From Stereum hirsutum FP-91666 SS1 (lineage: Eukaryota > Basidiomycota > Agaricomycetes > Russulales > Stereaceae): a stretch of 64,000 nt of DNA. The stretch lies in contig NW_006763131.1 of NCBI RefSeq assembly GCF_000264905.1, positions 596,793-660,792 of the forward strand, given 5' to 3'. Both the position numbers and the translations under genes were made by a program. The notes under the pieces are model-generated. The model ran no database searches, was not told the DNA's origin, and saw only the letters and a program-made list of their open reading frames with translations. Positions 29,375 to 50,200 of the stretch are shown piece by piece (position 1 is the first letter of the stretch; every line of letters begins with the position of its first letter).

Positions 29375-31599
29375 ATGAGCAGCAAACACACCGTGCTCGC
29401 CGCCGTTGCCCGCAGTGTACAACGACGTACGCAGACGCACACGCTCCTGCGCATTTCAAGAACGCGAACACGAACAGAAAAACATAACGCCGCCGCCTCG
29501 CTACCCCTCCTCTCGGCATCCAGAACATTTCATACGACCGTCGCCCGGCTCTTCGAAAATAAGCACGCGCCGAAGGACGACAGCCCGCCACGAAGTAATC
29601 ATATCGACGGCGCGGCCTCGAACCAGTCCTTGTTCAGTGCGTCCCTCCTTCCTCCTGCTTATCCCCTTCCCCTCCCTTTTCCTTTCCTTTCCTTTCCTTT
29701 GCCCCGTCCCTTACGATTTGGGTTGAATTGTGCGGTCGGCTGATACGTATACGGTCATGGTCTGGACAGAACGTGCGTCAGAGGCATGGAGGCGCACCCC
29801 CACGAAATGGTATCCCCTCCCTTGGTTCGTCGGTGCGATGCTGCTCGTGCTAGTGCAGTGGAGGCGGACGGTAAGGAAGGAGGCGGAGGTGCATGTTGAT
29901 GGGGATGGACATGAGGTCGTGAGATTGAGGGGACCTTGGCAGGTGAGTTTGTTTATTGTTTGGTTGTGGTATGTATGTTTTGGTAGTGGTCGTGTGCACC
30001 GTCGGTTGAGACTTCATCTGAAACTACGAAAGTCCGAATATGCTTGTGCGCTGTTACTGTCTTTATAATGATTTAATACAAGAACATCGTCTCGACTCGT
30101 ACATACGACTAGTATACACAATTAATCTCCAACATACTCACCCACTTCACTCATCCCTTCCTAGGTCCACATCCTCGGCGCGCTCCCCCTCCGCAACCTC
30201 TCCCGCGTCTGGGGCTACCTCAACTCCCTCGAACTCCCCCTCTGGTTCCGTCCGTACGGCTACAAAATCTACGCCTCCCTCTTCGGCTGCGACCTCTCCG
30301 AGATCGAGCCGTCCGACCTGCACGCCTACCCCTCCATGGGCGCCTTCTTCTACCGCGCCCTCAAGCCCGGCGCACGCCCGATCGACGCGTCCGCACCGCT
30401 CGTGAGCCCCGCGGACGGCACCGTGTTGCATTTCGGAAAGGTCGAGGGGGCGAGGGTGGAGCAGGTGAAGGGATTGACGTATAGTCTTGATGCGTTATTG
30501 GGTTTGGAGGACCAGAGCGGGAAGAGGACTAGGGTGAGGAGGGCGGAGGCGGATCTCGGGAAGAGGAAGGAGATTGAGGTGGTGGATGATGAGGAGTTCG
30601 CGAACGTTAATGGGATTGAGTATTCCCTTAACCAACTTATTGGAGGAGCGGGGAGTACGCCTTCGACACCTGTTACGCCTTCTGCGCCATCGCATCCGAC
30701 TACCCAACGTTCTTCTTCTGCGTCAACGTCAGCCACGGAGAGTACAGACGAAGAATTCCCGACGGATCCAAAAGCGTACAGCACCCCCTCCTCGCGCGAC
30801 CGTCACCCCTCCCCTCAAAAACACGGCGAACGGATCGACGCCTCCGTCGTCGAGCCCGACCGCTCCATCCAAGAAACACTCTCGCACGACGTCTCGGTGG
30901 CGAAGGAGATGGGAGTCTCGCCTACGCTGCAGAGGACGCGGAGCACGTACGGCGCGACGGTGAGGCCCGGGAACGCGTTGTATTTTATGGTGGTTTATTT
31001 GGCGCCGGGGGATTATCATAGGTTTCATAGTCCGACGGCGTGGGTCGTGGAGAAGAGGAGGCATTTCATGGGTGCGTGATTGATTCCTTGCACGCTCTTC
31101 TTCAGACTTCTTGACGGGATTTGCTGATTGCTGACTCGGGGTGATTAATGGCAATGACACAGGCGAACTGTTCAGCGTGAGCCCCTACGTCGCCAAACGG
31201 CTCGAAAACCTGTTTGTGTTGAACGAACGCGTCGCCCTCCTCGGCCGCTGGCGCCACGGCTTCTTCTCCATGATCCCCGTCGGCGCCACCAACGTCGGCT
31301 CCATAAAAATCAACTTCGACCAGCAGCTCCGGACGAACCTCCGGCACCCCCGACGCTCGCGCCCGCCACCGGGGACGTACGAGGAGGCGACGTACTCCGC
31401 TGCGAGTCCGATATTGAATGGGCAGCCGTTGAGTGCGGGGGAGGAGATGGGGGGATTTTGTTTGGGGAGTACGATTGTGCTGGTTTGGGAGGCGCCGGAG
31501 GGAAGGGAGGGGTGGGAGTTTGGGGTGGGGGTGGGGGAGAAGGTGAAGGTTGGGCAGGGGTTGGGGAGGTTTGGGAGTGGGAGAGAGAAGGTTGAGTGA
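29375..31599 (+). CDS. PSD1: Mitochondrial phosphatidylserine decarboxylase (Psd1 type)
   Basis: Converts phosphatidylserine to phosphatidylethanolamine in the inner mitochondrial membrane. Basic presequence ([19 protein letters not shown]), membrane span [13 protein letters not shown], then the catalytic domain: [47 protein letters not shown] with the catalytic His, [20 protein letters not shown], and the pyruvoyl self-cleavage motif LGST in [15 protein letters not shown]. The autoprocessing Ser is intact. A long Ser/Thr/Pro-rich insertion (about 30640-30850) interrupts the domain, as in other fungal Psd1 proteins. The intron near 29640-29750 carries a CCTTT microsatellite. Four to five exons. 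Confidence 0.93.
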
Positions 31600-32097
31600 G
31601 GGGAAGGTTGTTGATGCATATACAGCTGACGAGACTCATCTCTACGTGCTTTACTTACCCATTTGGATTTCAACATCCGGAACCAAAATAATTCACTGCT
31701 TGCTCTTCGATGGGAGGGTCAGGGCTTTAGATAATTTATCTGCAGTGGCCCGTGATTTCTTGCATACTATCACGATGTTGCTCGTCTCAACTCAGGTCTT
31801 TTCGAACGAATATGTACGGTGAGGTTATACAGTACGTTCAATATGAGTGTGTCGAGTACTTGCAGCTGATGGGAATGTCGGACTTTCAATTTCTGTGGCG
31901 CCACATTCCTACGCCACCCACTGACATCAACTTGAATACACCGTAACGGCGACCATACATCGGAAACTCGTCTCAACCTCGCTTGCTATTGTCCTTGCAG
32001 CTCCAGTAATATAGATATCTTTGTCTCTGGCTTGTTATATATATCGTCTTCTGAGGAGCTAAGTACTCGTCGTCTATTACCACTCAAACTTCAGGAC
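31600..32097. other. Intergenic, no gene recognised
   Basis: About 500 nt between PSD1 and the reductase-like gene. It is AT-richer than its flanks and holds only short open frames. Confidence 0.5.
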
Positions 32098-32835
32098 ATG
32101 CCCGGGCATCTCCTCATTCTCGGCTCGACAGGCGCATGCGGCCAACTACTCGTCGAAACACTACTCGACATCCCCCATTCCAAATCCCCCAACTTTCCAC
32201 CGGGCTCATGGCACACCCCAAACCCAGCCCTCCCGACTCTAACTCTATACCTACGCACCCCCTCGAAGCTCCCCACCACATTCAGCACCCACCCGAACGT
32301 CACCCTCGTCGAGGGCACACTCACACCTGCCGACGAAGCCAAACTCACGTCTGCAATGACGGGCGTCTCGGCTGTTCTTAGTGCTATTGGGCCCAGTGTC
32401 AAAGAAGGACCGGACACGCCCATCGCAGAGGCTTATAAAGTCGTCTTGCACGCCATGCGAGCGAGCGGGGTGAAGAGGCTCATCGCGCTGGGCACGCCGA
32501 GTATCACGGACGAGAAGGACGGTTTCAGCTTGGTTTATAAGGCGATGGTACATGGGATCGCGCTCTATGCGCCCAATGCGTACAAGGATATCGTGAAGGT
32601 GGGAGAAGTCATTCGTGGAGCGAACGAAGGTGTGGAGAGCGGGAAGGAGATTGAATGGACGATCGTGAGAGTGCCGGCGTTGACGAGTTCGAATAATAAG
32701 GAGGTCGTGGCGGGGTATATTGGCGATGGGAAGACTGGGGCGACGCTTGCGAGGGCTGGGTTTGCGGCGTTCGTGGCGGGAGAGTTGCGGGCTGGAGAGT
32801 GGATCCGTGAGGCCCCTCTGTTGACCTCGGCTTGA
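32098..32835 (+). CDS. NAD(P)-binding Rossmann protein (NmrA-like atypical SDR)
   Basis: A single-exon 245-aa protein. The N-terminal LLILGSTGACGQLLVETLLD has the GxxGxxG dinucleotide-binding motif of atypical short-chain dehydrogenases/NmrA-like proteins. Further family text: PNVTLVEGTLTPADEAKL, GVSAVLSAIGP, VVLHAMRASGVKRLIALGT, WTIVRVPALT. Conserved SDR catalytic Tyr-x-x-x-Lys is not evident, as in many NmrA-like members, so it may act as a redox sensor or a reductase of unknown substrate. The start at 32098 is the Met right before the Rossmann strand. Confidence 0.8.
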   Translation: MPGHLLILGSTGACGQLLVETLLDIPHSKSPNFPPGSWHTPNPALPTLTLYLRTPSKLPTTFSTHPNVTLVEGTLTPADEAKLTSAMTGVSAVLSAIGPSVKEGPDTPIAEAYKVVLHAMRASGVKRLIALGTPSITDEKDGFSLVYKAMVHGIALYAPNAYKDIVKVGEVIRGANEGVESGKEIEWTIVRVPALTSSNNKEVVAGYIGDGKTGATLARAGFAAFVAGELRAGEWIREAPLLTSA

Positions 32836-33347
32836 GTGAGTACTTGGGACGCGATCGTCTGAACGCGATACTCGGGAATATCGTGTCCTCGTGTTGTACT
32901 GGAATACCGTTCCTATCAGATAGAACCCAGTGTCTCGGTATCCAAGTTGTAAGTCTCTAGGAGCTAGTGCATTCCGATGTATTCTAATATATTGTGCAAG
33001 AGAAGGCGGCAGTATAGGGTAGCCGCACTCTCCAGTACCTGTGACAGACATGAACACTGTGCTAGAGAAAGGAGCAGCTCGCGAGTCATGATCACTAGAA
33101 TATGTTCAACTCCGATAGGGGACAACGATAGCGAGTACTCAGGATGATAGATGCAAGCGTCATTCGATGTAAGACCAAAACGGCGAATTATTGACAGTAT
33201 AAAAAGCATAGCAATACATTACCGTAACGCAACAAGAGGAAAACGAGACGAGATACCCACCTCACATCTACATCACAACATCCTATCAAGAGACATGAAC
33301 TGGACATCTCAGCTTGCCACCCCCTCACACCCGCTTCTTATAAGCGT
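32836..33347. other. Intergenic between two convergent genes
   Basis: About 510 nt holding the 3' ends of the reductase-like gene and the inositol kinase gene. No gene is seen. Confidence 0.5.
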
Positions 33348-34719
33348 TCAGGACGCCGCTTCCTTGGTCTTATCTTCCTCCACGAGCTTCTTCACCTCCT
33401 CAATCCTTCCCTCCAACAACTCAATAACCGTATCCATCCCTTTCAACAACCCCTTATCTGGCCCTTGTCCAGGCGTCAACTTCGTATGCGCGAAGTCTAT
33501 GAGCTTGACGATATACGGCGGACCAGGCCTCTCCTTCGCCTTCTCGTCTTCATCCTCCTCCTCTTCGTCCTCGTCGTCCTCGTCATCGTCGTCATCACTC
33601 TCCAGCCCACTCGGATGTTCTTCCATCCACTTCACACCCTCCCTCGCTTTCTCTATATCCGCCTCATATATGAACAAAAAGCTCGAAGCGATCATCCTCA
33701 TCTCGATACATCCCGCGATCTCGCGTATCATCTCCACGTCGAGCAACATCGCTTCGAGGATAGGAAGAAGAAGGTGCGCAGGGAGACCTTGGTTGTGCGT
33801 AGATGTAGATGATACCTGAGGGAGGGTGGGGAGGAGAAACGTCGGGTCGGAGGGGTGAGAGGCGGGTGTCGAGGTGAAGGGAGAAGGGGAAGGAGAAGAG
33901 GAGGGGACGGGGAAGAAGCGTGCGATTCCGGAGGGGAGGTCGCTGGGTTTGATAGATTTGCCGTAGGATTTGGAGGTCTTGACGGGTTTCGAGGTCGTAT
34001 TATCGTATACCTGCGCATGTCAACATGTCAAAATTTCGCTCCTGCTCACGGTCTGCATGAGCTGGGTCAAACCTGAAATCCAGTCAATCGCACGCCCGTC
34101 TCGAAAGATGTCGTGTCCCGTGCAGTCTTCGACATACGCGCCTTCTTCTCTTCGCTCGCGTCGTCGTCGTAGAGGACGGTCCCGAGTTTGATATCGAGGA
34201 TGTTAGGCTTACGAAACGGAGTTGTGAGATTCTCCAGGACCAACCTGCACCCAAAACCACACCGTCGATCAGCACAAACGCATCCCTCACCGCCCGCAAC
34301 AACTCGCAGCTTAAACAGAAACAAAGAAAAACTCACGTCTCCTTCTTCTCCTTCCCCTCCACCTCCTCAATATTCCCCCTCTCATCCTGCACCCCCTCCA
34401 ACCTCAACGTCCCATAAAACCTCGGCACCCACCTCCTCAAATCGCCCAACCCCAGCTTCTCCCCATCTTCACTCTGCAGTACACTCGCATAGAATTTATG
34501 TTCGAGCGGCAGGGCGGGCTTGAATACCAGCGAGCCGTCCTCGGACGTCTGTACGCCGGAGTGGCCGCCGACTTGGTTTGCGAGCTCGAGAGGGTGCGAG
34601 GGGGGGTAGGGGCTGTGTGAGCGGGAGGGGGCGGAGGAGGGGGAAGGAGAGGGGGAGAGGGAGGACGGGGTGGCGCTTAGGCTGAGATTGTTGGGGGAAG
34701 GGGTCACGATGGCGGACAT
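33348..34719 (-). CDS. Inositol polyphosphate multikinase (Arg82/IPMK family)
   Basis: Kinase that phosphorylates inositol polyphosphates (InsP3 to InsP5 in yeast Arg82). In order: Ser/Pro-rich N-terminus, VGGHSGVQTSEDGSLVFKPA (ATP-binding lobe), YASVLQSEDGEKLGLGDLRRW, RFYGTLRLEG, the inositol-binding signature KPNILDIKLGT (PxxxDxKxG), SFETGVRLTGFQVYD, ASSFLFIYEAD (SSLL-like motif) and the Mg-binding IDFAHT with the catalytic Asp. An Asp/Glu run of about 20 residues (near 33550-33600) inserts before the last motif, as in yeast Arg82. About four exons. IP6K is the alternative, but the length and acidic insert favour IPMK. Confidence 0.88.
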
Positions 34720-35185
34720 CGATATCGGGATGGGGGGTTGCTTCAGAGGTGGTGTAAATAGATGGAGGCGAACTATAGACAGAAGAGAGCTAAGAATGCA
34801 CTGCTTCAGATTATGAAGATAATATTTGTTTCGACGTGGCAGACTACTCTGAATGTCGTGGAGGCCTACCTTAGATATAGTGTGAGGCGTAAGTAAAGGT
34901 TCAAGGTGACAGAGCGGTACAGAGCAGAAGAGCGTTCATGGCCAAGGAGATCATGGTGGCATGGAGAGCATCGGTTCGTGCAAATATCGAAATTCGAATG
35001 CTTGGCGGGCGGTGTGGCACCTACAGCAGTGGCACTTCGGTGGCGCCCTCGTCCACTGATTTCATTGCGAAAAGCAACTGTATCTGTAGGAACTTCGTAC
35101 AAACAGCTCATCCAGTACATACACAAGTACGTACACTTTTTGACTCCACTATAACTATATACCTATCCACGTCCTACCACCCGCC
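34720..35185. other. Intergenic, no gene recognised
   Basis: About 465 nt upstream of the inositol kinase and downstream of the aminotransferase. Only short, motif-free frames. Confidence 0.5.
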
Positions 35186-37066
35186 CTACTCACAAAGCAC
35201 ACTCCACCCCTGCCACTCCACCCTCCCATGCTGCACATCCACCAACCTCTCATAAAGCGCACTCGCCACCGGTCCCATCGGCCTCGTCTCCCCCCCTCCC
35301 CTCTTATCCCTATACTCCGGCAACACCACATCGCCCAACCCCTCCTCCCCTCCCTTTCCGCTCCAACCGATTCGCGCCACGGCAGTGACGACCACCGCCG
35401 TGCCGGCGCAGAACGCTTCGAGGAGGCGGCCGGTGGAGGAGTAGGCGTAGAGTTCCGGCATGGAGATGGGGCGCTCGTGGAGGTGGATTTTGAGCGCGTT
35501 GGAGAGTTCGGGGAGGGAGGTGGAGGTGGGGTGCGCGGCGAGGAGGGAGAGGACGGAGGCGCGGGTTATGCCGGGGAGGATGGTGCCGTCGAGAGGGGGG
35601 GTGATGATATCCAGGCCTGCACCAACACCCACCGTCAGCTTCCACAGTCTCTCAAGGGAGGGAGAATATGAAGGGAAACGTACCACCGTCATCTCGTTTC
35701 ACGACGATAAAGAAATTCATAGCCCCCGCCTCCGTAATATTCTCTCCAATCAACCACAATACCTGCTGATATCCCTTCTCAATCGCCATCCTCTGCGGAC
35801 TAAACCCAGGCGCATAATTCAACCCCAACTTGAACCCTCCATGTCCACCTGGCCACGACCTCACATGTTCCCCCACCGCAAGCAAGGATATGCCCTTGGT
35901 TGTGCTGGATTTGAAGTAAGGCCCGGTGGGGGAGAGGATGACGAAGAGAGTGGCGTGGGTGGAGGCGGTGACGCCGAGGGCGGCGCGTGTGCCGATGAGG
36001 GTGGGACGGATGTAGAGGGAGGAGCCTTTGGGTTTGGGGATCCAGCGGGATTCGAGTTGGACGAGACGTTTGATGAGGACGAGAAGCGCGGAGGAGTCGA
36101 AGGGCTGTGGGGGTGCGAGATGGGTTAATAAGGGGAGAGGCGGGGAAAGTAAGAGGGGAATTGGGATGTGAGGCTTACGGGGAGAGCCATACGGGCTGCG
36201 GAGCCTTCGAGGCGCTTCATGTTGAGTTCTGGGCGGAACAGACGGGGTTTACCATCTGCGCCGAGATAGGCCTAAGAGGACGAGTTTGTGAGCTTGGATG
36301 AAAGGATATGAAACGACCGAGATATCGCAGAGAGCGGTATCTATGCATTGTGTACATTCTCCGTGATGTGATGAGTAGTAAGACTTTTGTAAGGACGAGC
36401 AAGGCCCTTTCGTGATAGTCATACCACTGCAACCGATAGCAAAAATCCTCGACCAGCCGCCAAAAATATAACCATGACCTCATCAAGTCCATGCTTTCAT
36501 TACGCACACACAAAAAATTCCAACGCAGCACTCAACTTTACTCGCATCGAAGCGAGATTTGACGTAGTACGAAGAAGACGAAAAAACCACACACCTTCAT
36601 ACCCTCAAACACGTTCGGACAGTATTGCAAACACGAGCTCGCCGGATCGATGCTCAGCGGGCCATAAGGCTTGATCTCAGGTGCTGACCATCCGTTCTCG
36701 GGCTCGTAGTGCATGATGAGCATATGGTCTGTCATTGTCTATTCCCATTCCCAGTCACATCAAAACGTTAGTCTACATACCAGTGAAAGATTTTAAGGAA
36801 AAGAGAAGGACGCACCTGGCCAAAGACTAAGTCCTCCACGGCCGGCATAGGTTTTAGACTGTTGCTCATTGTAATCGTCAGTTTCGATGGCTAGTTTCGT
36901 TCGTATAGAGTGAGCATCCTGCTTGAAGTTAGTGCGAGGAAAAACGCACGTCGATCTCGTTCAACTTTGGGGGCATGCCCCCCGGGTTTTTGAGGACCTT
37001 CGCATCTCCGGCAGGGAGGGGAAGCCCATTGGAGCTCAGAGGCTCGTTCGTTTTTGGGATCGTCAT
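35186..37066 (-). CDS. BAT: Branched-chain amino-acid aminotransferase
   Basis: PLP enzyme that interconverts Leu, Ile and Val with their 2-oxo acids. Start MTIPKTNEPLSSNG at 37066; spliced exons give DPSKLTITMSNSLKP, EDLVFGQTMTDHMLIMHYEP, LQYCPNVFEGMKAY, ALGVTASTHATLFVILSPTG, GGFKLGLNYAPG with the PLP Lys, NITEAGAMNFFIV, TPPLDGTILPGITRASVLSL and a C-terminal AFCAGTAVVVTAVARIGW. About seven exons. No mitochondrial presequence is visible with this start, so it may be the cytosolic form, or an upstream start may exist. A 267-bp divergent promoter is shared with LIP2. Confidence 0.9.
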
Positions 37067-37333
37067 TCTGTTCTAGTTCCGAGTCTATGTATGTGGTCTA
37101 GCTGAGCAAGGAAGGAGCGCTAGCAAGAAAAGCTGTGGATGGATACAGACAAAGGAGAAAAGCAAGAAGAAAGGAGGTGAAGATATAAATACAGGCCTGA
37201 ACAGAGACAGTCGAGTCAGGAGATCGACAGTGATTCGCGGAGCTTATCTTATCTGACCCGGGAGATCGGCGGCTCACCCAGTGATGCCACCGTAGCGCTG
37301 GGCCACCTTGCTTACTGACCAGCACTGTCGACC

Positions 37334-38164
37334 ATGGGCCTCCCTCCAATACTCTATCATCATTTCTCAACACCCCTACCATATATCCAAACTCTTGCAC
37401 TGCAAGAAGCTATCCACAACTTTCAACTTTCGTTGCGACGTTCCGCGCCTTCCAAACACCGAGATATCCTACTTCTTCTCGAGCACCGACCCGTCTACAC
37501 CGCCGGTCGACGACAAGCATCGACTCCAGAGCACGAACGGGAGCTCATCGCCGAAGAAACACGTCTCAAACCTCTCGGAGCCGACTTCGTCCGCACAAAA
37601 AGAGGAGGCCAGTTGACCTACCACGGTCCTGGCCAAATGGTGGGCTATCCTCTGCTGGACTTGAGCGCCGGGTCCGGGTCAGGACCTCCCCTCAGCATCC
37701 GGGACTATATCTGCAGACTTCAGAAGACGATCGAAGAACATTTTTCGGAAGGGCATGGGATTCCGGTGTCGAATTCGGAACATACGGGTGTTTTTCTAGA
37801 TGAGAAGACGAAGGTTGGGTCGATTGGAGTGCAGGTGCGACATCGGCTGACGACTCATGGATTTGCGTTCAATGTTACGAGGGAGCCGCTCCCGTGGTTC
37901 GATGAGATTGTCGCTTGTGGGTTGGCGGATGTGAAGGCGGGGTGTATCGAAAGCGCGGGTGGAGAGGATAGGCGGGTCAGCGTGGCGGGAGAAGTGCAGG
38001 GCGTGGTGGACAGGTTCGGGAAGAGGTTTGGACGAGATATGGAGAGGATGGAGTTGGGCTCTGGGCAGATGGGCGAGGTTGAGGAGATTATTGTTGGGCT
38101 GGAGCAGGAGGCTCGGGAGGCAGGAGACTGGGGGAAAGCGCCACGCCAGACTGGGACTCCATGA
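37334..38164 (+). CDS. LIP2: Lipoyl(octanoyl) transferase, LipB/Lip2 type
   Basis: Transfers octanoyl groups from acyl carrier protein to lipoyl domains in mitochondria. It is a 276-aa single-exon gene. Motifs: LLLEHRPVYTAGRR, GGQLTYHGPGQMVGYPLLDL (LipB signature), HTGVFLDEKTKVGSIGVQVR with the catalytic Lys, THGFAFNVTREPLPWFDEIV, and ACGLADVK with the catalytic Cys. There is no strong mitochondrial presequence, though the N-terminus is short and uncharged. Divergent from BAT. Confidence 0.94.
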   Translation: MGLPPILYHHFSTPLPYIQTLALQEAIHNFQLSLRRSAPSKHRDILLLLEHRPVYTAGRRQASTPEHERELIAEETRLKPLGADFVRTKRGGQLTYHGPGQMVGYPLLDLSAGSGSGPPLSIRDYICRLQKTIEEHFSEGHGIPVSNSEHTGVFLDEKTKVGSIGVQVRHRLTTHGFAFNVTREPLPWFDEIVACGLADVKAGCIESAGGEDRRVSVAGEVQGVVDRFGKRFGRDMERMELGSGQMGEVEEIIVGLEQEAREAGDWGKAPRQTGTP

Positions 38165-38768
38165 CGCTGTCGGTACGTTTGCGCCGTTGTCATTTTCACT
38201 ATACAAGGGCTGAACATCCTCTCTTGAATCGTTGGCTAGCTTGTTGAGGATTGTACAATGTATCAGGCCAGCACCTCGTTACGGATTCTGAGACGTGATC
38301 CCCACGGTAAAGCTAGTTCGAGCGGTATGTCTAGTCGTGCATTCTAACATAGTATTGAACAGCTCATCAACTGCTTTTGAGAATAGACTACCCCTCGAGG
38401 CCAACTTCGACGCACGAGGGCAGCCTTGCTGCTTATTTTGACAGGATACACGTCAGATTGCATCCGCCCGATATTTCCAGGTGACACTGTATTCGTACTT
38501 CTTGATCATGAGCGGTGATAGTGCGCCGCCGGCTTACAAGTTATGGGGGTCCTGGAAGTTTCAAGCATGCACTTTGGCCATGGGAAATGCAGACTGATTG
38601 ACTGTTCCCGTCGATTACTTACCTCGAATTCTCGGGCGTAGGAAGGGCGAAAGCACGTGTATAGGAAACAATCAATGAGAAATGACGGAGAGTACACGGT
38701 CAATAGACGAAGGAGAAATTTGTCTGGGCGATACAAGAGGCCAGGTACAACGTTAACGAGCACTCCAC
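38165..38768. other. Intergenic, no gene recognised
   Basis: About 600 nt between the LIP2 stop and the predicted stop of the repeat-peptide gene. It would hold both 3' UTRs. No gene seen. Confidence 0.45.
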
Positions 38769-39675
38769 TCAAGCGTCGTTTCTTCCCGTGTCTAATGATG
38801 ACGTCAAAAGTCAGCTCAACTGCAACCAACTGCCTCGTCGTGACAGAGTTGAGGAATGAGGAATGAGGAATGAGGAATCAGCCTACTCACATTGTTTCAC
38901 GTTCGACGTGACACCGGTCTTCTCGACGAACTTCCCGGGGGAGGTCACGTTTCGCTCTATGTAGTGTCAAGTGTCAAGCACAGGGAGACAGTCAGTCAGT
39001 TCGGATTTTCGAGGCGATGAAAGGTGAGCATGTACAGAACATGACGTACTTTTGAAATCGGAAGTGTCGGACGTCACGCCGACGCCCTCAACAAAAGCGC
39101 CAGGGAGAGGAGTGTCGCGAGCTGAGTGGAGAAGGTCAGTCCAGATTCCACAGTCGACGAGATGTATCACGTACTTTCGAAGTCGGACGTGTCGGACGTG
39201 GCGTCAACGCCTGCGACGAAAGCGCCGGGGAGAGGCGTGTCGCGGGCTTTCACTACAAGCAGTGGAATAATGATCAGGATGAGTGGCAGCCCAAAAAAAA
39301 AGAAATAGGGAAGGGTGCGAACTCTTCTCCAGGCCGGAAGTGTCGGAAGTCACGCCCTCGGTTTCAACGAAACCGCCTGGGAGAGGACTGTCGCGAGCTT
39401 TCACTATAAGAACGATTAGAACGAGTTGCGGCCCCTAAAAAGTTACAGGGGAGGGTGCGAACTCTTCTCCAGGTCGGAAGTGTCAGATGTGACGCCGACA
39501 TTTTCAACGAACAAGCCTGGAATGGGTGTCGCGCGAGCCTCGACTGTTCATTCGAACCGTCGTCGGCTCATGGCAGTAGAAATGATGTTCTCGAGATGAA
39601 CTTACCGGCGTTCGCTACGGGGCTTGCGACGACCGAGGCAGCGAGGAGGAGAGCGGAGAGAATGATTGTACGCAT
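38769..39675 (-). CDS. Secreted repeat peptide precursor, one repeat per exon (candidate RiPP precursor)
   Basis: Seven exons (39606-39675, 39463-39543, 39323-39403, 39175-39252, 39050-39121, 38891-38956, 38769-38791) encode 156 aa. Exon 1 is a signal peptide (MRTIILSALLLAASVVASPV). Exons 2-6 each encode one imperfect repeat with core DTPLPGAFVEGVGVTSD. All internal introns are phase 1 and the repeat exons are 81, 81, 78, 72 and 66 nt, so every repeat is a symmetric exon. A basic residue precedes each repeat (EAR, KAR, KAR, TR, KKR). Exons 2 and 3 use a weak GTTCGC donor. The last exon encodes a short tail ending GRNDA; reading through the last donor instead gives a stop two codons later. I know no named family for it. 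Next to UstYa-type and methyltransferase genes it fits a RiPP precursor; a repetitive wall or surface peptide is the alternative. Confidence 0.72.
38851..38878. repeat. Four tandem GAGGAAT units
   Basis: Four perfect 7-nt copies on the plus strand, inside the last intron of the repeat-peptide gene and just downstream of its donor. Confidence 0.9.
39050..39543 (-). repeat. Tandemly duplicated exon-intron units
   Basis: Four homologous exons (39463-39543, 39323-39403, 39175-39252, 39050-39121) with a degenerate fifth at 38891-38956. The two introns after exons 2 and 3 are also alike: both start GTTCGCACCCT, are followed by a pyrimidine tract and a GGGC-GC motif, and end before TGAAAGC. Whole exon plus intron units were therefore duplicated. 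Confidence 0.8.
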
Positions 39676-39701
39676 GGCTCGAAGTCGAGGAGGCTGAAAT
39701 C

Positions 39702-40066
39702 GCTGAGAAAAAGATAGTTAGTTCACGACAGAATAGTTTATGACCATCAGACGTTCCCCGGACTGTGCCAAGAACGAAATTCATGTCGTTGCCTAACAAG
39801 GTCAACGGCGATTACAAAGCGAAAACTATCGATCCAGTGCTCGTCTGGAAGATGCTTGGTCTTCCGATTTTCACGGACAGACCTAGACATTATCCAACAC
39901 GAAGCTCTCCAAACGAGCGTGGTCGGTTTCTCCACATATCACAAAGACGAGCCAGGGACAGGCAGGAGAGAAAGACACAAATGAGACTTACAGTCACAAA
40001 CAGGTCCTAGATCCGAGTGGGTGCAAACAGGGAATCGCGGAGCGAATGGTGGTGGTTGGGTTTATA
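39702..40066 (-). promoter_or_regulatory. TATA box and 5' UTR intron of the repeat-peptide gene
   Basis: On the minus strand TATAAA lies at 40061-40066. Downstream, a segment without ATG ends in a GTAAGT donor at 39991, and a pyrimidine-rich CTCAG acceptor lies before 39702. This gives a non-coding first exon and a 289-nt 5' UTR intron ahead of the start codon at 39675. Confidence 0.5.
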
Positions 40067-40440
40067 GAGAGATGGGGATCGTCCTGGGGCCTGGGCGAGG
40101 ACTTTGTGCCGCTATCCTATCAGGGTATTTGGAAGGTTGTTGGGAGGGCGGTTCCGATGAGGATCGTACCGTGTGACGACTCTGTAGAGCAATGAGGTAC
40201 GTACTTATGCCCCTTTCTTCCGATACTCCGGCTCCTTCTCGCTTCTTGAGCGCTGAGCTTATCCCCAAGTAATACTTACGGTCAGTAACGGGCACACATA
40301 TGTTACTTACTGGTCTTCTGACAGCATTGTGACGGCGGCGATTCAGATCCGAGGGTGATCGTCAGAAAGACTTGGTCCTGCGAAAGCGCCTTGAACTTGA
40401 ACCTGTACACCACAGTTGTCGATCCTCTCCTTTGTGCTCC

Positions 40441-41046
40441 ATGGCGAGCTACCAGCGACTCTCCGCCAGCGACGACAACATCACTGAGGAGCATGGGCTA
40501 GTCGACGAGAAGCAACGGTCGTTATCACGAACATTGACACCGAAACATACCTTCGATATCTTTCGCTACCTCACTCTCCTTCTCATCGCCGTTAATGTCC
40601 TTTTGGCTGGTGTCAATCTATGGGCAACCAATGCTCTCTCTTCGACCATCCTGGACATAACTCCTCTCACCAAGGTCGCGCACCTACCTATGCCAGACCA
40701 GTATGTAGGCCTCAGCGATGTCTCTCGACAGAAACGTGCGTGCGAGTTCTACTGTCCTTGTGTCGTTGAAATCCAGCTGATTGAGGTGACCGATTATCCA
40801 CTTCAGTGATCCATACCGAAGAGGAGAAAGCCAGTGTCCTTGGTTCACGCGATACATCTTGTGAGTTTGCTCCCATGTCCTAGTTGCCTCCCAATCTCAG
40901 TCGACGCGACTCGTCTACAGGATTGTACTTTTGCAACTGTTGAGATAGGAATAGGACTTCAGGAGAGCACACGGTTTGTCATATTGACGCATGTGCGTGC
41001 AGTCATCGTGGGCTTCGTGCATCTTCCGCAAGAGTTGTGCCTTTGA
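40441..41046 (+). CDS. UstYa-associated type membrane protein, probably truncated
   Basis: Exon 1 encodes a short cytosolic head, one membrane span (TLLLIAVNVLLAGVNLWA) and the luminal motif LPMPDQYVGL, close to the LPRPDPYVGL-like sequence common after the anchor in UstYa/DUF3328-type proteins of fungi. Exon 2 (about 40815-40859) encodes HTEEEKASVLGSRDTS. A third exon with an acceptor after CAATCTCAG runs to a stop at 41046 (FATVEIGIGLQEST). The HxxHC motifs of complete UstYa proteins are missing. It is either a truncated copy or a member of a related anchor family that accompanies UstYa genes. The start is the first Met. Confidence 0.5.
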
Positions 41047-41672
41047 TCGTAGTGACAATCTATGCAGGGTCTACTTCCAATAGGAGACACATTTCTCCAG
41101 AGAAGAATTGAACAGGGTTTCAGAGGGTTTCCCGGGCGATATTATCGTGAGCGAGGTTCTTAAGCTAGCGTGAAACAGGAAAGCAGCCTTGCGTGATGCG
41201 TAGGTCGGAACAGAACCGACTGCCGAACACTTCGAGGCCATCTGGTGAACACCATCGTAAGGGTCACTGGTGTGGTCCCCCTGGATCCTATCCACGAAGC
41301 TCGTACATACTATGTATTCTGCACAGTGAGTAAATCATGGTCAAAACACCTCTTTCGGAGGAAAGTTATCTTGTGAGATACACCGCAGGGTGAACGCTAC
41401 GTTGGCGAGAGATGTCACTGAAAAGAGCGCCCAGGCGGTCCCCCAAAGATTGCTCCGAGGAATGAATTCAAAGCGCTCTCTGAGTTTCTTCAAAAGCCGT
41501 GACATTCCTTCTTTCAGGGTCGACCTCGGCCAGAGCCAGACTACTTGGCGGAATAGTTACATCATACTCGTATAACCAGCAACTGCTACCATTGCTCCTT
41601 GGATCACAACGCTCCTTACACTTTCGCCTCCTTCCGTCCCACAATCTTGTTACGCGGTACGCAGAGAGCGAT
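41047..41672. other. Intergenic, no gene recognised
   Basis: About 620 nt between the two UstYa-type genes. A minus-strand open frame at 41071-41295 has some protein-like composition but no motif I recognise. Confidence 0.4.
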
Positions 41673-42459
41673 ATGGAAGGCAAAGCCTCGTCTTTGAGGT
41701 GGACGATCATTGGGCTTCTCTGCCTCGCAGTATATCAGGGCATGGAGGTTGCGTCCAAACTGCGAACTCTGCGGATCCTTCATCCCGTGAAGAATCCAGA
41801 GGCAGTCTCGTACAGTGAGTGCCCTTCAAGCGCTACATTGATTGCAGCTAATTCCCATGGCTCGATGGTCTCGTAGGCTACATCGGTGATGATTATCCCA
41901 AGGAGCTGCCTCTACGAGTCAATCAGGTCGCAATGAACGCCGAATGGCTCGACGACGAAGTCTACGGGCCTTACGCAGACGAAGACTGGGCATCCAACTT
42001 CCCCAAAAGCAACGGATGGGTTGCACTCGGTCCAAACCACGACATGTTCGTTCTGTCCATGTTCCATCAGCTGCATTGTCTCGATGCATTGCGGTTTGGA
42101 TACGTGACTGCGAAGGCAAGAGTCCTCGACTTTCCCGGGAACGGCACGGGCGTCGAGCACCATGTCAATCATTGCCTGACCTGTATGTACCGATTTCCCC
42201 CCTCCTTCCTAGAATTTCGCTTTCTGATCACGTACCTTCAGATCTTCGAGAGATGATTCTCTGCGCGGGCGATATGACGCTCGAAACATCGGTGCCGACC
42301 ATCAATTCCATCGGCCAGCCGGATAACGCTGCTACAGGCCTCGATATCCTGCACAAATGTCGCGATTGGACTCAGATACGGGATTATCTTGACGAGAATT
42401 ACGAAGAGAGGCAGAAGTGGAAGGCAGAGGGAGGCAACTCGACGTCGATGTACCCGTGA
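41673..42459 (+). CDS. UstYa/DUF3328 family protein
   Basis: About 220 aa in three exons. An N-terminal anchor (WTIIGLLCLAVYQGMEVASK) is followed by a luminal domain with the two family hallmarks: HQLHCLDALR and HVNHCLTYLREMILC, each an HxxHC motif. UstYa-family proteins in ustiloxin, phomopsin and asperipin pathways carry out oxidative cyclisation or tailoring of ribosomal peptides in the secretory route. The text between (GPNHDMFVLSMF) and after (ADMTLET-like, CAGDMTLETS) also fits. The protein ends shortly after DENYEERQKWKAEGG. Splice sites GTGAGT and GTATGT are canonical. The neighbouring repeat precursor is the natural candidate substrate. Confidence 0.82.
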
Positions 42460-43484
42460 CGGGCTGGAGGATGGAGGGGTATGTTTCGGTCGATATATGC
42501 GTCTTTTTCCATTGGTGCTGCTTGCTTCGAATACTCGGGCGATATGCGAGTCTGTTCTATCCAGGTTGTATCAACCGGGGGCTGGCCGTTCTGAATGTTG
42601 CTCGACAGTGCTTCGGAAACAAGGAAACCTTGATCAAGCCGCCCACGCCACTCCCGGCGGTTGCCGCTCTAGTCTGACGCCACAAAGTTCAGACAATTTC
42701 TCCGTGCAAAAACCACTCACGTCCGACTCTACAACCCGACAATTTCACTACAAACAACACCTTCAAAGATGCTGGCTGCGCTATCTTTGAATCTACTTGC
42801 CCCTATGTCTTATGATCTCTAGCTCTCACCATCACCCATCCTGTTTTCGTGGGAGTTAAGTACTGAAGTACCCATCGCTTGCGTTTTTCGATTCACTTGA
42901 TGTTCAGAGCTTAGGTACCAACAGAGTACCTCGGGAACCTCACAACATCTACAGAGACTGGGCGACGTATTGCAATGATTCTGCTCACACACATATACTC
43001 GTGTGAGCTTACTTGAAGGGAATTCCCCACGAGAACATTCGCGGCCATTTTGCGATAACCGTCGGTTCTCCTGGATCTCCATGAGCGTGAGCCTGCGTGA
43101 GCGCATGAAATGTTCTTGGTGATGCGATTGTTCCGATGTTGATGGACGCCACGAAGTTGGACCCCTATACGTTTCAGATTGTGGTCGTATCAGCTTCCAC
43201 TTGCTAACACCGAACACGCCTCGAAAACGAGTTGTTTTTCTAGGATCGCGAAGAGGTCAGTATATTTTGGCCATAGACATCGACACTGTCGATAGGTGCT
43301 GCCGCTCTCCCGTTAGGCCCTATGGGGCGTTCCTAGTCGATACATGATAGCATCAGCTGTGCGTGCGCCAATGCAACGGGATGCTTCCTTCTGACCAATT
43401 CAATGATTTCGGTCAAACGTTCAACGTGCATAAAGAACGAAAGGTCCTGATCTCGCGTGTTCTCTCTGCATCTTTTTCCTCATC
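42460..43484. other. Intergenic, no gene recognised
   Basis: About 1 kb. Open frames on both strands, including 42819-43217 minus, show no conserved motif and no intron-exon pattern. Confidence 0.4.
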
Positions 43485-44954
43485 ATGTCTTACGCCCCAG
43501 ACGAGTCAGCAGCACTCCTCGACAGGGAGAGGGGCTTGTATGATGGATTCACCTTGGGTGCTGCGGCCTACGGTGCGAACACAAAAATACTTTCTGGCCT
43601 ATAAGCGCTGACTTTCATAGCTTGTGCGATTATTAGGTGTCCTTCTCACTCTTTTTGTACAGTGTATGAACGCACTCACTCAGAACCCGCGGGGAGGCAA
43701 GATTCTATGGCACTATGTCGCCTACGTTTTTGTAATGTTCGCGCTGGGAAACGTGGGATATTTCACGCACCTTCGCTTTATCCAACTCGCTTTCGTGGAC
43801 GATCGTGAATATCCTGGAGGGCCTTTGGGTTACCAAGCGGCTCACTACACTTCAGTGATCAACATCACTGGTATAGTTGCGTGCGTACCCTCACTCAATC
43901 TTACCGTCCTCGTTGGTTTCTGACGCTGGGTTTACAGCTACTTTATGATGAATTGGATGGCAGATAGTCTGGTGGTATGTCACAGTTCGCTATGCATATA
44001 TGATTTAGCAGATTTTATGACCTCTGTGGATAGCTCTATCGGCTATACGTGATCTGGGAACGTAGAACTCTCGTGGTCGCCTTCCCCACAATGATGTTCA
44101 TGGCGTCTTTCTGTGCGTTTTTGCTCTTTTCGACATTGTTCTCTAAGATATGCTTAGTTCGGTTGAAATTATCATTAATGTAGCGCTGTCTATCGTCGAA
44201 CTGTACAGCATCACTCAACCAGGCGCCAGCATGTTCTCTGACTCGGCGGTCAACTACGGGCTTCGTGCGTCCTCTCGTCTGTGCCATGGCCCCCTAATCC
44301 TAATATGCTCTATGTTCACTTCTGTTCAGTATATTGGTCTTTCTCGGTCGCTTTGAACATCGTCGTCACATTGCTTATAGTGTCTCGGTTGATGTACATG
44401 CGCTACATGCTCATGAAGACAATGCAGCAAACCGAAGCCGGGGTCTATACCAGCGTAGCCGCCATGATCATCGAATCCGCCGCTCTTTACTCCATTTCTG
44501 CTATCATATTCCTTGTCGGCTACGCGAAACAGATTCCACTGCAGTTCGCTGTCGAACCCGTCGAGCTCATTCAGGTATGTCTGTCCTGGTCGAGTATTCC
44601 CGTACCCTCCTAACGCGTCTTGAACATTAGGGCGTCTGTCCTCTCATGATCATCCTTCGTGTGGCGAACGGTAATGCCTGGTCCAGGGAAACATACCGTT
44701 CAGTGGTACCTGGCTCCATGACATTCGCCCCGAACCCGCATGTGACGCAAACAAAGCGATCGTCGAAGCGTTGGGATGGTAGTAACACGGCTTTCGGAAG
44801 CAGCGGTGACAAATCGTTCGGCCTGAGGTCCATCCATACGTCGAATCCAGGAGACCTCTCATTCGTCGACACTACTGTGGGCTCACATTCAAACATCGAG
44901 CAGCATCCGATCTCGGAATTTGTTATACATGAGGTGAAGGAACCAGAACCATAG
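43485..44954 (+). CDS. Polytopic (about seven-span) membrane protein, basidiomycete-specific
   Basis: Start MSYAPDESAALLDRERG. Spliced exons give successive hydrophobic spans: VLLTLFVQCMNAL, HYVAYVFVMFALGNVGYF, INITGIVAYFMMNWMADSLV, LVVAFPTMMFMASF, FSVALNIVVTLLIVSRLMYM, IIESAALYSISAIIFLVGYA and PLMIILRVANG followed by NAWS. LYRLYVIWERR and the LRVANGNAWS ending are typical of a large uncharacterised family in mushrooms (DUF6533/6534-like), thought to resemble receptors. A hydrophilic Ser-rich tail ends VKEPEP. About six exons; the second acceptor is taken at ATTATTAG|GTGTCC because it keeps the first span open. Function is unknown; a link to the neighbouring cluster is not shown. Confidence 0.72.
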
Positions 44955-45182
44955 CACCGGTGTAGGAATATGCACCTTGATTACTTTTCTGGTGGCGAAA
45001 CCAGCACTCATCCCTCATTGTTTGTATGATACTCATACCAATTGCCTTGGACTATATCAATACCATTCCCTTCGAGACGATGCTTCCTCAGCAACGTTGC
45101 GAACGCAAAAATCTTTGGTCATTACAATGAAGCATGCATGAAACTCCAACGATACACCTCTGCTCGTACTGCGACTAACTAC
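44955..45182. other. Short convergent spacer
   Basis: 228 nt between the stops of the membrane protein and the methyltransferase. Nothing else is visible. Confidence 0.5.
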
Positions 45183-46392
45183 TCATGGTTTCTGGGCTAC
45201 CAACTCGCAGGCGATGATGCATGCACCTTCCTCCTTGATCCCATCCCGAATCTCCTGAACCAGAAGCTTCCTCCCCTCTTCGGTCTCTATCTTTGTTCCT
45301 TGGGGCGCCTCGAGCACCCCACGCTTCAACATCGACTGGGATAATACTTCCAACACCAAGTCAAAGTTCTCAAGCGAGAAGTCTGCCTCTGATGCCAGTG
45401 AACCACCGTCAAGACCCTTGTAGACGTGGCAAAGCTTGCCGAACGGCGAAATGCCTCTCGTCGAGTGGATGATGGGAAGAGAGATGTCATTCAGGAGGTC
45501 CGGAAGGCGATAGGAGAGGCTGTATGAAGATGGAGTCAGAAGTCCGGATGGTGTGAAGAATAACAAGAAGGGTAGAACAGCTTTACTCAGTGATGAAGCC
45601 GTTACTGAGCGCGCCGCCCGTAAACATAGTGTTCCATTTATGTCTCCATGTGGGGCCATTCATGGCGGCCGCAAAGTCATGCCGCTCACTGGGTGTGGGT
45701 GGAGGGGCACTTTCCGTGTAGAAGACGGCATCGGTCTCACTCAAGATGAGATGCCCACCAGGTGCTGGCACCGTCGCATTGAGAAAGTCAGCGACTCACT
45801 GGCGTAGATGAAACAGGGTGACGCACTCAGTAGATCCTTACAGTTCTGTAGAGCCTTCTTCCATCCGTCTTCCGTCAAAGCGTACACCAGTAGCGTCATA
45901 TGCACCAAATCGAATGTGCCGTACAACTCGGAAGGGAATGGCTTGGTCACATCTTGCTCGAACGTCTTGAGACCCACACTGTCCGCGATTTCCTTCTCAG
46001 GGAACTTCGCCGTACTGATATCGCACGCCCATAGTTGCAAAGGGGCCTTTGGATCGCGAGATTGTCCAGTAGAAGTGCTGGCATTGGCGAGGCGTGAAGT
46101 GACTTCAGGAAGTTTGGCGAGGTCTAAAGTCCAGATACAGGTTCCTGCCGCAATGTCAAGGACACTGGAGACAGAGTTGATGTCGATGCACGATGGAAGA
46201 GGTGATGTGCGGCCCAGAATTTTCTTCGCCATGAGATACTGAGAGGTCAATCTGACGGTGCCCCAGTTGATCGAACAATCAGACACGAGGAGCGATGTCC
46301 GTGGGCAAAGCCATGACGAGTCTAACATACCTAACTTTCTCGGGGGCGCTGTCCCCAAGAACATATTTTGCTTCCTCTGGTGCTGTGGACAT
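45183..46392 (-). CDS. Class I SAM-dependent methyltransferase
   Basis: Four exons. Start MSTAPEEAKYVLGDSAPEK, then RLTSQYLMAKKILG, motif I VLDIAAGTCIWTLDLAKLP, LWACDISTAKFPEKE (motif II acidic loop), TFDLVHMTLLVYALTEDGW, LLTPGGHLILSETDAV (motif post III) and a C-terminal region ending ACIIACELVAQKP. This layout matches small-molecule or peptide methyltransferases of fungal secondary-metabolite clusters. Motif I normally reads D-x-x-x-G-T-G in this family; here the last Gly is Cys. Methyltransferases (UstM/PhomM type) accompany UstYa genes in dikaritin clusters, which makes it a plausible tailoring enzyme here. The substrate is inferred only from location. Confidence 0.82.
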
Positions 46393-47260
46393 GTTAGTCG
46401 GTTATAGTCCAGTTTGAATATTCAACGGTAGGACACAGCAGAATGTAAACACACGCGATGATGTTGGAAAAGAAGATCAGGTTCGTGATCACGAATCCAC
46501 CACATTGACAACGTGTGGTCTAAGCACATGAGAAGATGCGCATATCGGGTCGGAGCTCTTCACCTTGTCAACAAACTTGTCCGAAGAATCAAAGCGAACA
46601 CCCATCAGAAGTCGCAATCGTAGCACATGGGGTGTTGCTGCTGATCGGCATCCCGACAGCAGCGACGGTTGAATTGTGAGACGGTCAGGGGAACCAGGAT
46701 AGAGTTTACATCCTGTATCACTGGATCCAAATGGCAGAGATGGTACGGCAGAACGGCAAAGGTCAGTCTGCTAAAAGCGGGCGCCACAAAGCATCAGAAG
46801 AAATTAGAATTGTGAGTTATTTCAAGGCTATCGCACCTACATTGAATAGTTGAGCAGTGGCCAAAGCTGCAGGGGCACCGTCGACCGGCGTTGAATGGAG
46901 AAAAGCACCGATTGAGATATAGCATGCAATTGAGTAGATATATACAGCAAGGAACGAGCAAAGAGTGTCGCCGAGAACGGCGGATATATGAGTGTAAGTA
47001 GATGTAAGACTGTCAGCACGAGCAATTGCAAGGAGACCGAGAGGTAAAGATGAGATCAAGGGGAGCGAAAAAAGGTTCAGCAGAAATTGTGGGGATATAT
47101 GAAGATGGAGCGAAGCTTATGAGTAATGTAACGTAGCCGAATAAAATCCTCCGAAAGAAACGCATAGTGACCAAAGCTGGTGAGAAATAAGGGAAGGAAA
47201 GCGACGAGCAGATAATGAAGGAGCCGAACGAAATTATACATTGACATATTCCTGGATATT
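46393..47260. other. Intergenic, no gene recognised
   Basis: About 870 nt upstream of the methyltransferase and downstream of the very large gene. Open frames here are short, hydrophobic or low-complexity and lack start or splice support. Confidence 0.45.
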
Positions 47261-50200
47261 TTATGACCACCAACCGTCCTCTCCTTGGGTAGGCGTCACA
47301 GAAACGACGCTCGGCGTCGGTGATGCCGCAGCTTGGCGATAATACGAGTGAGCTGATCGCTGCTTGGCGTTGTAACTGAGATGGGGGTAACGAGAAGCTT
47401 GTGGTGCTTTGGGAGCGTGCATTGAGTCCCAGACCGAGGTGGTTGGAGGAGTGTTCGTGCGGTTTGTGGGCGCACGCGAGACAGGACGGCCATTGGCAGG
47501 TGCAGTCGGTGTTGCAGCACGGCTGGGGTATACTGTACTTGCACGAGAATCCGGTCGAGGAGGAGAGTTAACGGACATCTTCGCGGTCTTTGCATCCTCT
47601 TTCGCCTTGTCAGCTTCGGCCTGAAGACGGGCAACTTTCTCCTCGAGGGAGGCGACCTGATCGCGCAACTTGCTCTCACGTTTCTGCAACATAGCCATCA
47701 GTTTCCGGACAGACCGTGACTCAAAGCGATAACGGTATCGAGTGAAGATAATGCTTACCTGAGCCAAACGCTCATCCGCATCCTTCTCGTCGAGTTGCAA
47801 CTTGGCGAGAGAATGGTCCGTCTCAAGGTCGCTTGCCCTGCGCTCGGCCTCATCGCACCTCGACCTCATCTCCTCCACTTCCGCCTCATATTCCTTCGCG
47901 CGTTGCTCCCACTCAATCGCCCGCTGTTGGGCCTGAGTGAGGCTCTGCTTCGCAGCAGTGGCCGCACGGTCGCTACTGGCGGCCTTACTCTCTTGGTCCT
48001 TGAAACGACGTTGGAGGGCCGCGTAGTCGCTCTCGAGGGCTTTGGTCTTGTCGCGAACGCGGCGAAGTTCCATAAGCTCGGGCTCATTGCTCTTCTGCTG
48101 CTGCATCAGGGAGGTGAGCAACTCGATCTGCTGAGTGGCCTGGTTGAGTTGGTCCCAGTTTGACTGCTGTGAGAGGAGGACGTCGTGATCGTTTCGGAGC
48201 GAAGCGAGGGCCTCGTCAGAAGCTGCTTTCTGCTGATTGGCGAAGTTGGCCTGCATCTCGAGAGCCTGGACCTGTATCAAGGATAAACCCTCTCAGAGAG
48301 ACGTACGGTGTATGAGACACAAACGATGCGTACCTGCAGCTTGAGCTTCTGCGCCTCGGTCATATTCTCTCGTCCAATCCTATCCAACTCGGCGATCCTC
48401 GCCGCTTGAGTCTCGGACGCAACATCGGCAGCTTTCAATCTATCCAACGCCTGAACCAACGCCTCCTCAAGCTCGGTATGCCGTGCTTCCGAAGCGGCAG
48501 CGGCAGCTGCCCTGTCGACCATGCTCGCCTGGAGCTCGTCCACTTGAACCCTTAATCGATCCCGCTCGTTTTCAGCGGCGGTAGCACGCTCGGCGAGCAC
48601 ATCCTTCTCGACGCGAACGGAGCCGTGGGCTGCACGGGCCTTAGCGAGTTGGACTTGGAGTTCTGCATTGGAGTTGAGCGTGCGGCGGAGTTCCTCGAGG
48701 TCTTGCTTGGATGCGGCGCGCGCAATGAAGTCGGCCAGTGTCGATTGGATGGCTTGAGACGACGAGGCCACACTTTCGGGCAAAGTCGTGGTGAGTCGGG
48801 CGAGGGTATCCTGGTGAAGCGCCAGAATCTCGCCGTTCTGAGCCTGCAACGACTGCTGTCCCCTGACGAGACCTTCTACCCCCGACTCCACGACCGACAA
48901 GTCCAGCGGGGGTGCGACGGGCTGAGCAGCGGCATGAAGATCGCGTTCTCTGGCCACTCTGGCGGCGTCGTCGATCTTCATTAACAACGCCTTCTGCAGG
49001 TCTCCCAGGCCTTCCAGCTTCCCTTGCAGACCCTCCAGTGCCTTCAGCGAGCCGGAATTGACAAGCTTGATCATCTCCTTCGTTTGACCCGCCATCTCCT
49101 GCTGCCCGATAGTCATCTCCCTAATCTTCTTCACCACGTCCTCCATCGGCGCCTTCAGGCCCTCAACACCGTGCTCTACCTTCCCAGCGAGGGCGTCCAA
49201 GCCCCGGTCTCTAACTGCCAACCTCGAGTCAAGCCTCTCAACAACCAAATCCGACACCTGCTCCTTGATCTCATGAGCATCGGCCGGTGCCACGATCCTC
49301 CTGACCTCCGTCGTAATCCTCGAGATGATGGTCTCCGCATCAGGCATAGTAACAGGAGGATAGATATTCGGGAGAACAGGCAGGAGCTTATCGACGATGA
49401 GGTCCGCCGTCTCGCGTTTATCCGACGCGAGGTCGATGAGCTGAGCGATATGCGGCTTGACGGCCTGCGAGAGTTGATTCGTGAGACCTTCGTAGTCGAT
49501 GGGTTCGGAGCGCATCATCGCCATATGAGGAACGAGCGCGGCCATGAGTTCGCGAACGAGGGCTTCACGGTCGAACGCAGTGGAGGCGACACCGTGCGAA
49601 TGCGACGACGAGGACGAAGGACGGTTGTGGGTCGCGAGACTGACTTCGATTCGGTTCGCCAGCTGCCCGACGGCGCCGAGCACGGTGTTCATCGTTCGGC
49701 CGTGGAACTCTTCCATCATCCCCGGCACGTTCAGACCACCGAACTGGGGCTGAGACTGCACCCTCCTCAAGACCTCGGCCAGGTCCTGTTGCATGAGCGC
49801 CCTCGTTTCTGCGTGTCCGTTCTCGACGATATCCCTGACGAGCTGGAAGTCCAATTCACCCCGAGCGTCCATCGTGCTGTCGTCCAGGCCTCTAGAAGCC
49901 GATTCTTGCAGTTGACTACGGAAGAGGGAGACGACTTCGTTGATCATGGCCTCCGTCTTCGGGTTGAGCGCACCACCGTCTGTCGTTGAAGCATTAGCCT
50001 GGTAATGGTCCTGAAGATCCATCCTAATCTGGTCGATCTTCTCATCGAAGAGAGACTCGAGGCGGTCTTCGAACTGTTGCAACTCCAGCCGAGCATTGAC
50101 ATTGTTGCCGGATGAAGACGAACGGGGAAGAGCAGGCGGCAAAGAATCCGACATGGACGAGCTTGAATGAAGAGCAGGCAAAGACGACCTTCTCCGTGGC

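Follow-up and report, generated by a model that had tools for sequence, protein, structure and literature searches.

The precursors of the dikaritins (ustiloxin, phomopsin, asperipin and victorin) are, as far as is known, built with their repeats inside one exon. A gene on the minus strand of the window analysed here (the whole 64-kb stretch of Stereum hirsutum DNA) resembles them in being a repeat precursor that adjoins a UstYa-family gene. Dikaritin units are separated by dibasic sites (PMC9769878), whereas the window gene does not follow a dibasic rule. The usual cross-link residue of dikaritins is Tyr, which the units of the window gene lack. Victorin is an exception in using Phe, and a Phe–Leu link is on record (PMC9233826). 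KEX2-processed repeat proteins (KEPs; PMC6339444, PMC7329392, PMC9769878) resemble the window gene, whose product is predicted to be a small secreted precursor in which similar short repeats come after a likely signal peptide. Unlike in KEPs, each of its repeats occupies one symmetric exon and Lys-Arg (KR) stands at only one of five unit starts; its sister genes L050, L046 and L043, described below, do have KR sites. The epichloecyclin precursor GigA has a signal peptide, as is likely for the window gene, a variable number of repeats and a UstYa-like cyclase gene in its cluster (PMC8982410), but it has kexin sites between repeats and is an ascomycete gene. Rep1 of Ustilago maydis, which gives 37-residue peptides (PMC6339444), is likewise a basidiomycete secreted repeat precursor. 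Its repeats, however, are unrelated to those of the window gene. We know of no link between Rep1 and UstYa.

Umemura 2020 surveyed the surroundings of KEP genes and found a peak of DUF3328 (UstYa) genes at the directly adjoining position. Among 1680 basidiomycete KEPs, 103 (6.1%) were reported to have a DUF3328 neighbour, compared with about 30% in ascomycetes, and the authors suggested that basidiomycetes may hardly use cyclisation (PMC7329392). Pleurotus ostreatus has 16 UstYa genes (PMC8893723). All three KEP surveys (Le Marquer 2019, Umemura 2020 and Vogt 2022) used predicted proteins. These were cut at KEX2 sites by Le Marquer and in the first Vogt method; Umemura sought repeats first and KEX2 sites second, and the second Vogt method sought repeats in short signal-peptide proteins (PMC9769878). 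The words intron and exon are absent from the main texts of PMC7329392 and PMC6339444, and PMC9769878 has 'intron' once (intron-less cDNA) and 'exon' nowhere. A full-text search of open-access journal articles, covering titles, abstracts and main-text passages, returned no description of a fungal precursor whose cores each have an exon of their own. A preliminary description of this DNA knew of no named family with such a layout. As far as that search reaches, this holds for the layout, but the product appears to work like KEPs and dikaritin precursors.

The gene extends from 39675 to 38769 and is predicted to comprise seven exons and six introns (53–99 nt, GT-AG throughout), joined in one 471-nt frame (70+81+81+78+72+66+23) that encodes 156 residues and a stop codon. 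Exon 1 (39606–39675, 70 nt) contains the start codon and a likely signal peptide (MRTIILSALLLAASVVASPVANA). It was flagged by a home-made signal-peptide heuristic, which was applied to the window and to nine of the 17 other UstYa loci, and is the only such start found within 30000–48000. Exons 2–6 are all phase 1-1 and hold one repeat unit of 22–27 residues each: exon 2 (39463–39543, 81 nt, VEARATPIPGLFVENVGVTSDTSDLEK), exon 3 (39323–39403, 81 nt, MKARDSPLPGGFVETEGVTSDTSGLEK), exon 4 (39175–39252, 78 nt, MKARDTPLPGAFVAGVDATSDTSDFE), exon 5 (39050–39121, 72 nt, TRDTPLPGAFVEGVGVTSDTSDFK) and exon 6 (38891–38956, 66 nt, KRNVTSPGKFVEKTGVTSNVKQ), the last being the most diverged. Exon 7 (38769–38791, 23 nt) is a short tail, YTGRNDA plus the stop codon, and the repeats therefore number five. 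The consensus centres on PGxFV..GVTSDTSD, with an Arg near the start of the unit, PG-x-F-V in the middle and GVTSDTSD in most units; several similar short repeats, a hallmark of KEPs, are present. Recomputation returned exactly the coordinates and counts given in the preliminary description, namely seven exons and 471 coding nt with no frame break, and its symmetric phase 1-1 repeat exons of 66–81 nt were borne out for exons 2–6. The putative secreted precursor proposed there is also supported. Exons 3 and 4 have an alternative in-frame AG six bases downstream, use of which would replace MKARD with TRD, and introns 2 and 3 start with GTTCGC, a weak donor. Intron 6 contains TGAGGAA four times at 38850–38877.

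The repeats at this locus exceed chance. Genomic repeat family D1, with four copies, was recovered mechanically without assumptions, and a translated-repeat cluster scan of both strands of the window placed all clusters at the precursor locus and none elsewhere. Consistently, a symmetric-exon-pair scan gave 12 pairs, the best seven of which all fell at this locus. Over the alignable 63-nt cores of exons 2–5, pooled pS was 0.54 and pN 0.18 (pN/pS 0.34); exon 6 was excluded because it cannot be aligned to the others without gaps. Pairwise differences among exons 2–5 were distributed 14/31/61 over the three codon positions (n = 106; column permutation p ~1e-4 for the third-position excess), and the remaining two reading frames gave pN/pS >1. 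The third-position excess and the low pN/pS therefore identify the repeats as coding copies under constraint and not as a satellite. When introns were compared with shuffled sequences, two of the 15 pairs were alike at p <0.02: introns 2 and 3 are clear copies (score 41, shuffled maximum 28), and introns 4 and 5 weaker ones (score 26, shuffled maximum 29, p 0.006). Intron copies alongside exon copies indicate that exon-plus-intron blocks were duplicated, and growth of the precursor by such duplication fits these data, in support of the earlier proposal of expansion by whole exons.

The residues at the unit starts are AR, AR, AR, TR and KR, so that under a strict dibasic KEX2 rule (KR, RR or KK between repeats) only one start in five qualifies. 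Arg is nevertheless retained at the equivalent place in all five units while the flanking residues vary. Neither Tyr nor Trp occurs in the units of exons 2–6; the sole Tyr downstream of the signal peptide lies in the exon 7 tail, and the Tyr-bearing core of dikaritin precursors is thus absent. The Phe of PGxFV is present in 5/5 units. With the dibasic rule broken and Tyr missing from the units, the gene was therefore not classed as a KEP or dikaritin precursor; by strict definitions it is neither, though it would work like one.

A UstYa gene (PF11807) lies 2 kb from the precursor in divergent orientation, on the plus strand at 41673–42459. Its three exons (41673–41814, 41877–42182 and 42242–42459) have boundaries set by eye, the first of them being backed by a tblastn match. 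Exon 2 scores 28.4 bits against PF11807, and exon 3 scores 25.9 bits in the genome search and 26.4 bits against a gathering cut-off of 25. Exon 2 contains HQLHC and HVNHC, which we take to be the HxxHC-type motifs of the UstYa family. The joined 221-residue product, with a likely membrane helix, gave 22 protein matches, all 22 with PF11807; its best named relatives are from Dentipellis (67%), Artomyces, Pholiota and Peniophora, a set that fits an agaricomycete origin, probably within the Russulales. A viral-contig scan with this UstYa returned no relative. As in dikaritin clusters, a UstYa gene is thus part of the cluster, and this neighbour suggests a likely pathway for the precursor locus. 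The preliminary description, whose secreted-precursor reading and exon layout are supported, overlooked the gene next door.

Between the precursor and the UstYa gene sits a short plus-strand gene with a likely membrane helix (40441–40883, end placed by eye and uncertain), also divergent from the precursor, which is transcribed away from both. Its frame at 40333–40806 had no Pfam match, and a plasmid search with frame 40333–40809 gave no match. The genome search returned one paralogue, at L038 (match 4121–3834, gene about 4121–3650, minus strand), adjoining the UstYa gene closest to that of the window (47% over 186 aligned positions). Both short genes appear by eye to stop after about 115–125 residues and to have no UstYa motifs. 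The idea that the 40441 gene is a truncated UstYa was set aside, because the L038 paralogue also seems by eye to end early; it therefore looks like a separate short gene, possibly a partner of this UstYa type. Multi-helix membrane-protein genes, related by eye, occur from 43486 onward (plus strand) and at L038 from 2706 downward (minus strand). Given these look-alike genes at both loci, the two UstYa neighbourhoods may be paralogous blocks. On its other flank the precursor is followed by a lipoyl-ligase-type frame (PF21948). A 1219-codon frame at 48277–51936 (minus strand) has no Pfam match above the cut-off.

The precursor itself had no homologue at E 0.1 among 2381 candidates from the protein collection, in which fungal proteins are represented, as the UstYa search shows. 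The preliminary description had made preserved homologues a condition of its reading, and by that rule this result counts against it. Similarly, the L050 precursor gave nothing at E 0.01 among the best 7994 candidates. Pfam yielded no family for the window precursor; a weak PDE8 row (19.9 bits over 11 residues, below the cut-off of 25) was taken as chance. In whole-genome searches the window repeat (E 0.001) matched only its own locus, and so did each of the L050, L046 and L043 repeat types (E 0.1). Small multi-exon homologues may lie unannotated in other genomes.

The genome search for UstYa exons listed at least 30 matches, grouped by hand into at least about 24 genes in 18 neighbourhoods. 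Among the matches listed, 17 neighbourhoods lie outside the window, and 10 kb was examined for each. Three of these 17 (L050, L046 and L043) contain unrelated genes with a signal peptide and one repeat per exon, every junction being GT-AG. The layout, treated as unusual in the preliminary description, is therefore no one-off within this genome. The L050 precursor (ten exons, 169 residues) has six units of the SVYYMS type, which contain KR sites. Four of them occupy 69-nt phase 0-0 exons, one is interrupted by an extra intron, and the last is shorter. The L046 precursor (seven exons, 141 residues) has six units, and its Lys-Arg sites are intron-split at 6/6 junctions, with K closing one exon and R opening the next. 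The L043 precursor (four exons, 71 residues, first intron less certain) has three units, and at both inter-unit KR sites (2/2) the Arg codon is split by an intron. Dibasic sites thus occur at every L046 junction and between all L043 units. At L037, a signal-peptide exon is followed by a single core exon (VPNDVYAKRSEGVEDGNSLPYYK), a one-core version of the same plan.

These four sister genes (L046, L043, L050 and L037) carry clean Lys-Arg sites and cores bearing Tyr or Trp. All five precursors, that of the window included, point away from their own UstYa gene, with about 1.0–2.0 kb between the start codon and the closest UstYa match. Alike intron pairs were also found in L046 (3/15) and L050 (3/36). 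At the paralogous locus L038, translated-repeat and exon-pair scans revealed no repeat precursor, and 13 of the 18 neighbourhoods have no accepted one, the scans being blind to short or strongly diverged precursors. The link between precursors and UstYa is descriptive, drawn from five cases picked by looking near UstYa genes and from one 64-kb background.

We interpret the window gene as a polycore precursor linked to UstYa, with a mode of action like that of KEPs and dikaritin precursors. This reading starts from the open exon layout, the coding selection on the repeats, the copied introns, the UstYa neighbour and the precursor-like genes in four further UstYa neighbourhoods. The unit-per-exon layout, the predicted signal and a UstYa neighbour, which four precursor-like genes elsewhere in the genome also have, argue that the chain is likely cut into small modified peptides. 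With a probability of about 0.58, each of five predicted exons of the gene carries one unit, and the product, predicted to be secreted, is cut at the conserved Arg and then modified by the UstYa enzyme 2 kb away. The precursor mRNA would be spliced to a single frame and its product would enter the secretory pathway. A protease, kexin-like or otherwise, would cut after the Arg near each unit start (AR, AR, AR, TR, KR), and UstYa would oxidise the core, the Phe of PGxFV being the proposed reactive residue. Because each repeat exon is symmetric, gain, loss or skipping of one would alter the number of peptides and keep the frame intact. The published DUF3328 peak next to KEP genes (PMC7329392) provides independent support. 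Several observations weigh against the proposal: a dibasic start in only 1/5 units, the lack of Tyr and Trp in the units compared with Tyr in 65.6% of DUF3328-linked KEP repeats (PMC7329392), no precursor homologue among the 2381 candidates of the protein collection, the short membrane-protein gene that intervenes before UstYa, and the paralogous locus L038 together with the 13/18 neighbourhoods that have no accepted precursor. Given the sister genes, the general reading of UstYa-linked precursors is stronger than the case for the window gene alone.

The lack of Tyr and Trp would suit a linear-peptide precursor that is secreted and cut but undergoes no UstYa modification, its UstYa neighbour stemming from independent expansion of that family. 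Chance neighbours are possible because the genome has at least about 24 UstYa genes, and linear KEP peptides have been found in four agaricomycetes (PMC9769878). We nevertheless consider this unlikely, though it deserves some weight: all five precursor-like genes are close to and divergent from a UstYa gene, and Phe is able to cross-link, as in victorin (PMC9233826). The four of five unit starts that lack a clean dibasic site could instead mean that the chain of 133 residues stays whole, for example as a secreted wall or surface protein grown by exon duplication. That would leave Arg fixed at one place in 5/5 units amid varying neighbours, and Lys-Arg sites in the sister genes L046, L043, L050 and L037, to be accounted for, and we regard it as quite improbable. 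Finally, the gene model might be wrong or the gene dead, its exons being remnants or otherwise spliced, as the two weak GTTCGC donors and the failure to find a homologue among 2381 candidates might suggest; codon-level constraint between the copies and a frame open across seven GT-AG exons make this very improbable.

A broader proposal, which we hold tentatively and rate somewhat below even odds, extends the polycore reading to agaricomycete UstYa-linked precursors in general. These may be built by exon modularity, in which the core is a symmetric mini-exon, Lys-Arg is often made by splicing, and gain, loss or skipping of exons sets the number and kind of peptides. Surveys of predicted proteins would miss such precursors because their genes fragment into exons of some 40–80 nt, which would explain why basidiomycetes show many UstYa enzymes and few substrates. 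If substrates do hide in one-core-per-exon genes, the UstYa–substrate gap of basidiomycetes is partly an annotation artefact; the at least about 24 UstYa genes of this genome contrast with the suggested near-absence of basidiomycete cyclisation (PMC7329392). A simple finding rule would then follow, namely a signal-peptide exon and then symmetric mini-exons, placed head-to-head with UstYa, and fungi would possess an unusual peptide repertoire that grows, and is possibly re-spliced, exon by exon.

A scan for signal peptides with KR sites covered all 17 loci and positions 36000–48000 of the window and gave 10 rows; it misses the window gene, L046 3122 and L043. It recovered the L050 precursor, added L037, and flagged L040 from 4977 to about 4270 (minus strand) as a possible exon-repeat precursor (PQPDTVFKR, PQPEELSRR, PQPDVVFK), too uncertain to count, with ambiguous middle exons. 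L042 7460, L042 7469 and L047 4596 were rejected as the likely UstYa N-terminus, because a UstYa exon on the same strand lies no more than 450 bases away, and L042 869, L044 7726 and L046 1552 were dropped as not convincing. Five rows of the repeat scans were rejected. Of these, L041 is one proline-rich pair and L044 a single weak pair, L048 resembles by eye tandem HMG boxes in one frame, and L052 is a low-complexity protein in long frames. The fifth, L036, is a repeat of roughly 260–380 bases that is interrupted by stops and looks alike on both strands; a long tandem DNA repeat occurs there at about 500–1560, close to a UstYa locus where contig C25 begins. The L039 row of the KR scan looks by eye like an aspartic protease, and two similar secreted-aspartic-protease-like genes (2274 and 6558, plus strand; DTGSSNTW, by eye) flank the UstYa gene there. 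On the window's own contig, where the window begins at 596793, four UstYa genes including that of the window fall inside about 73 kb (566.8–639.2 kb).
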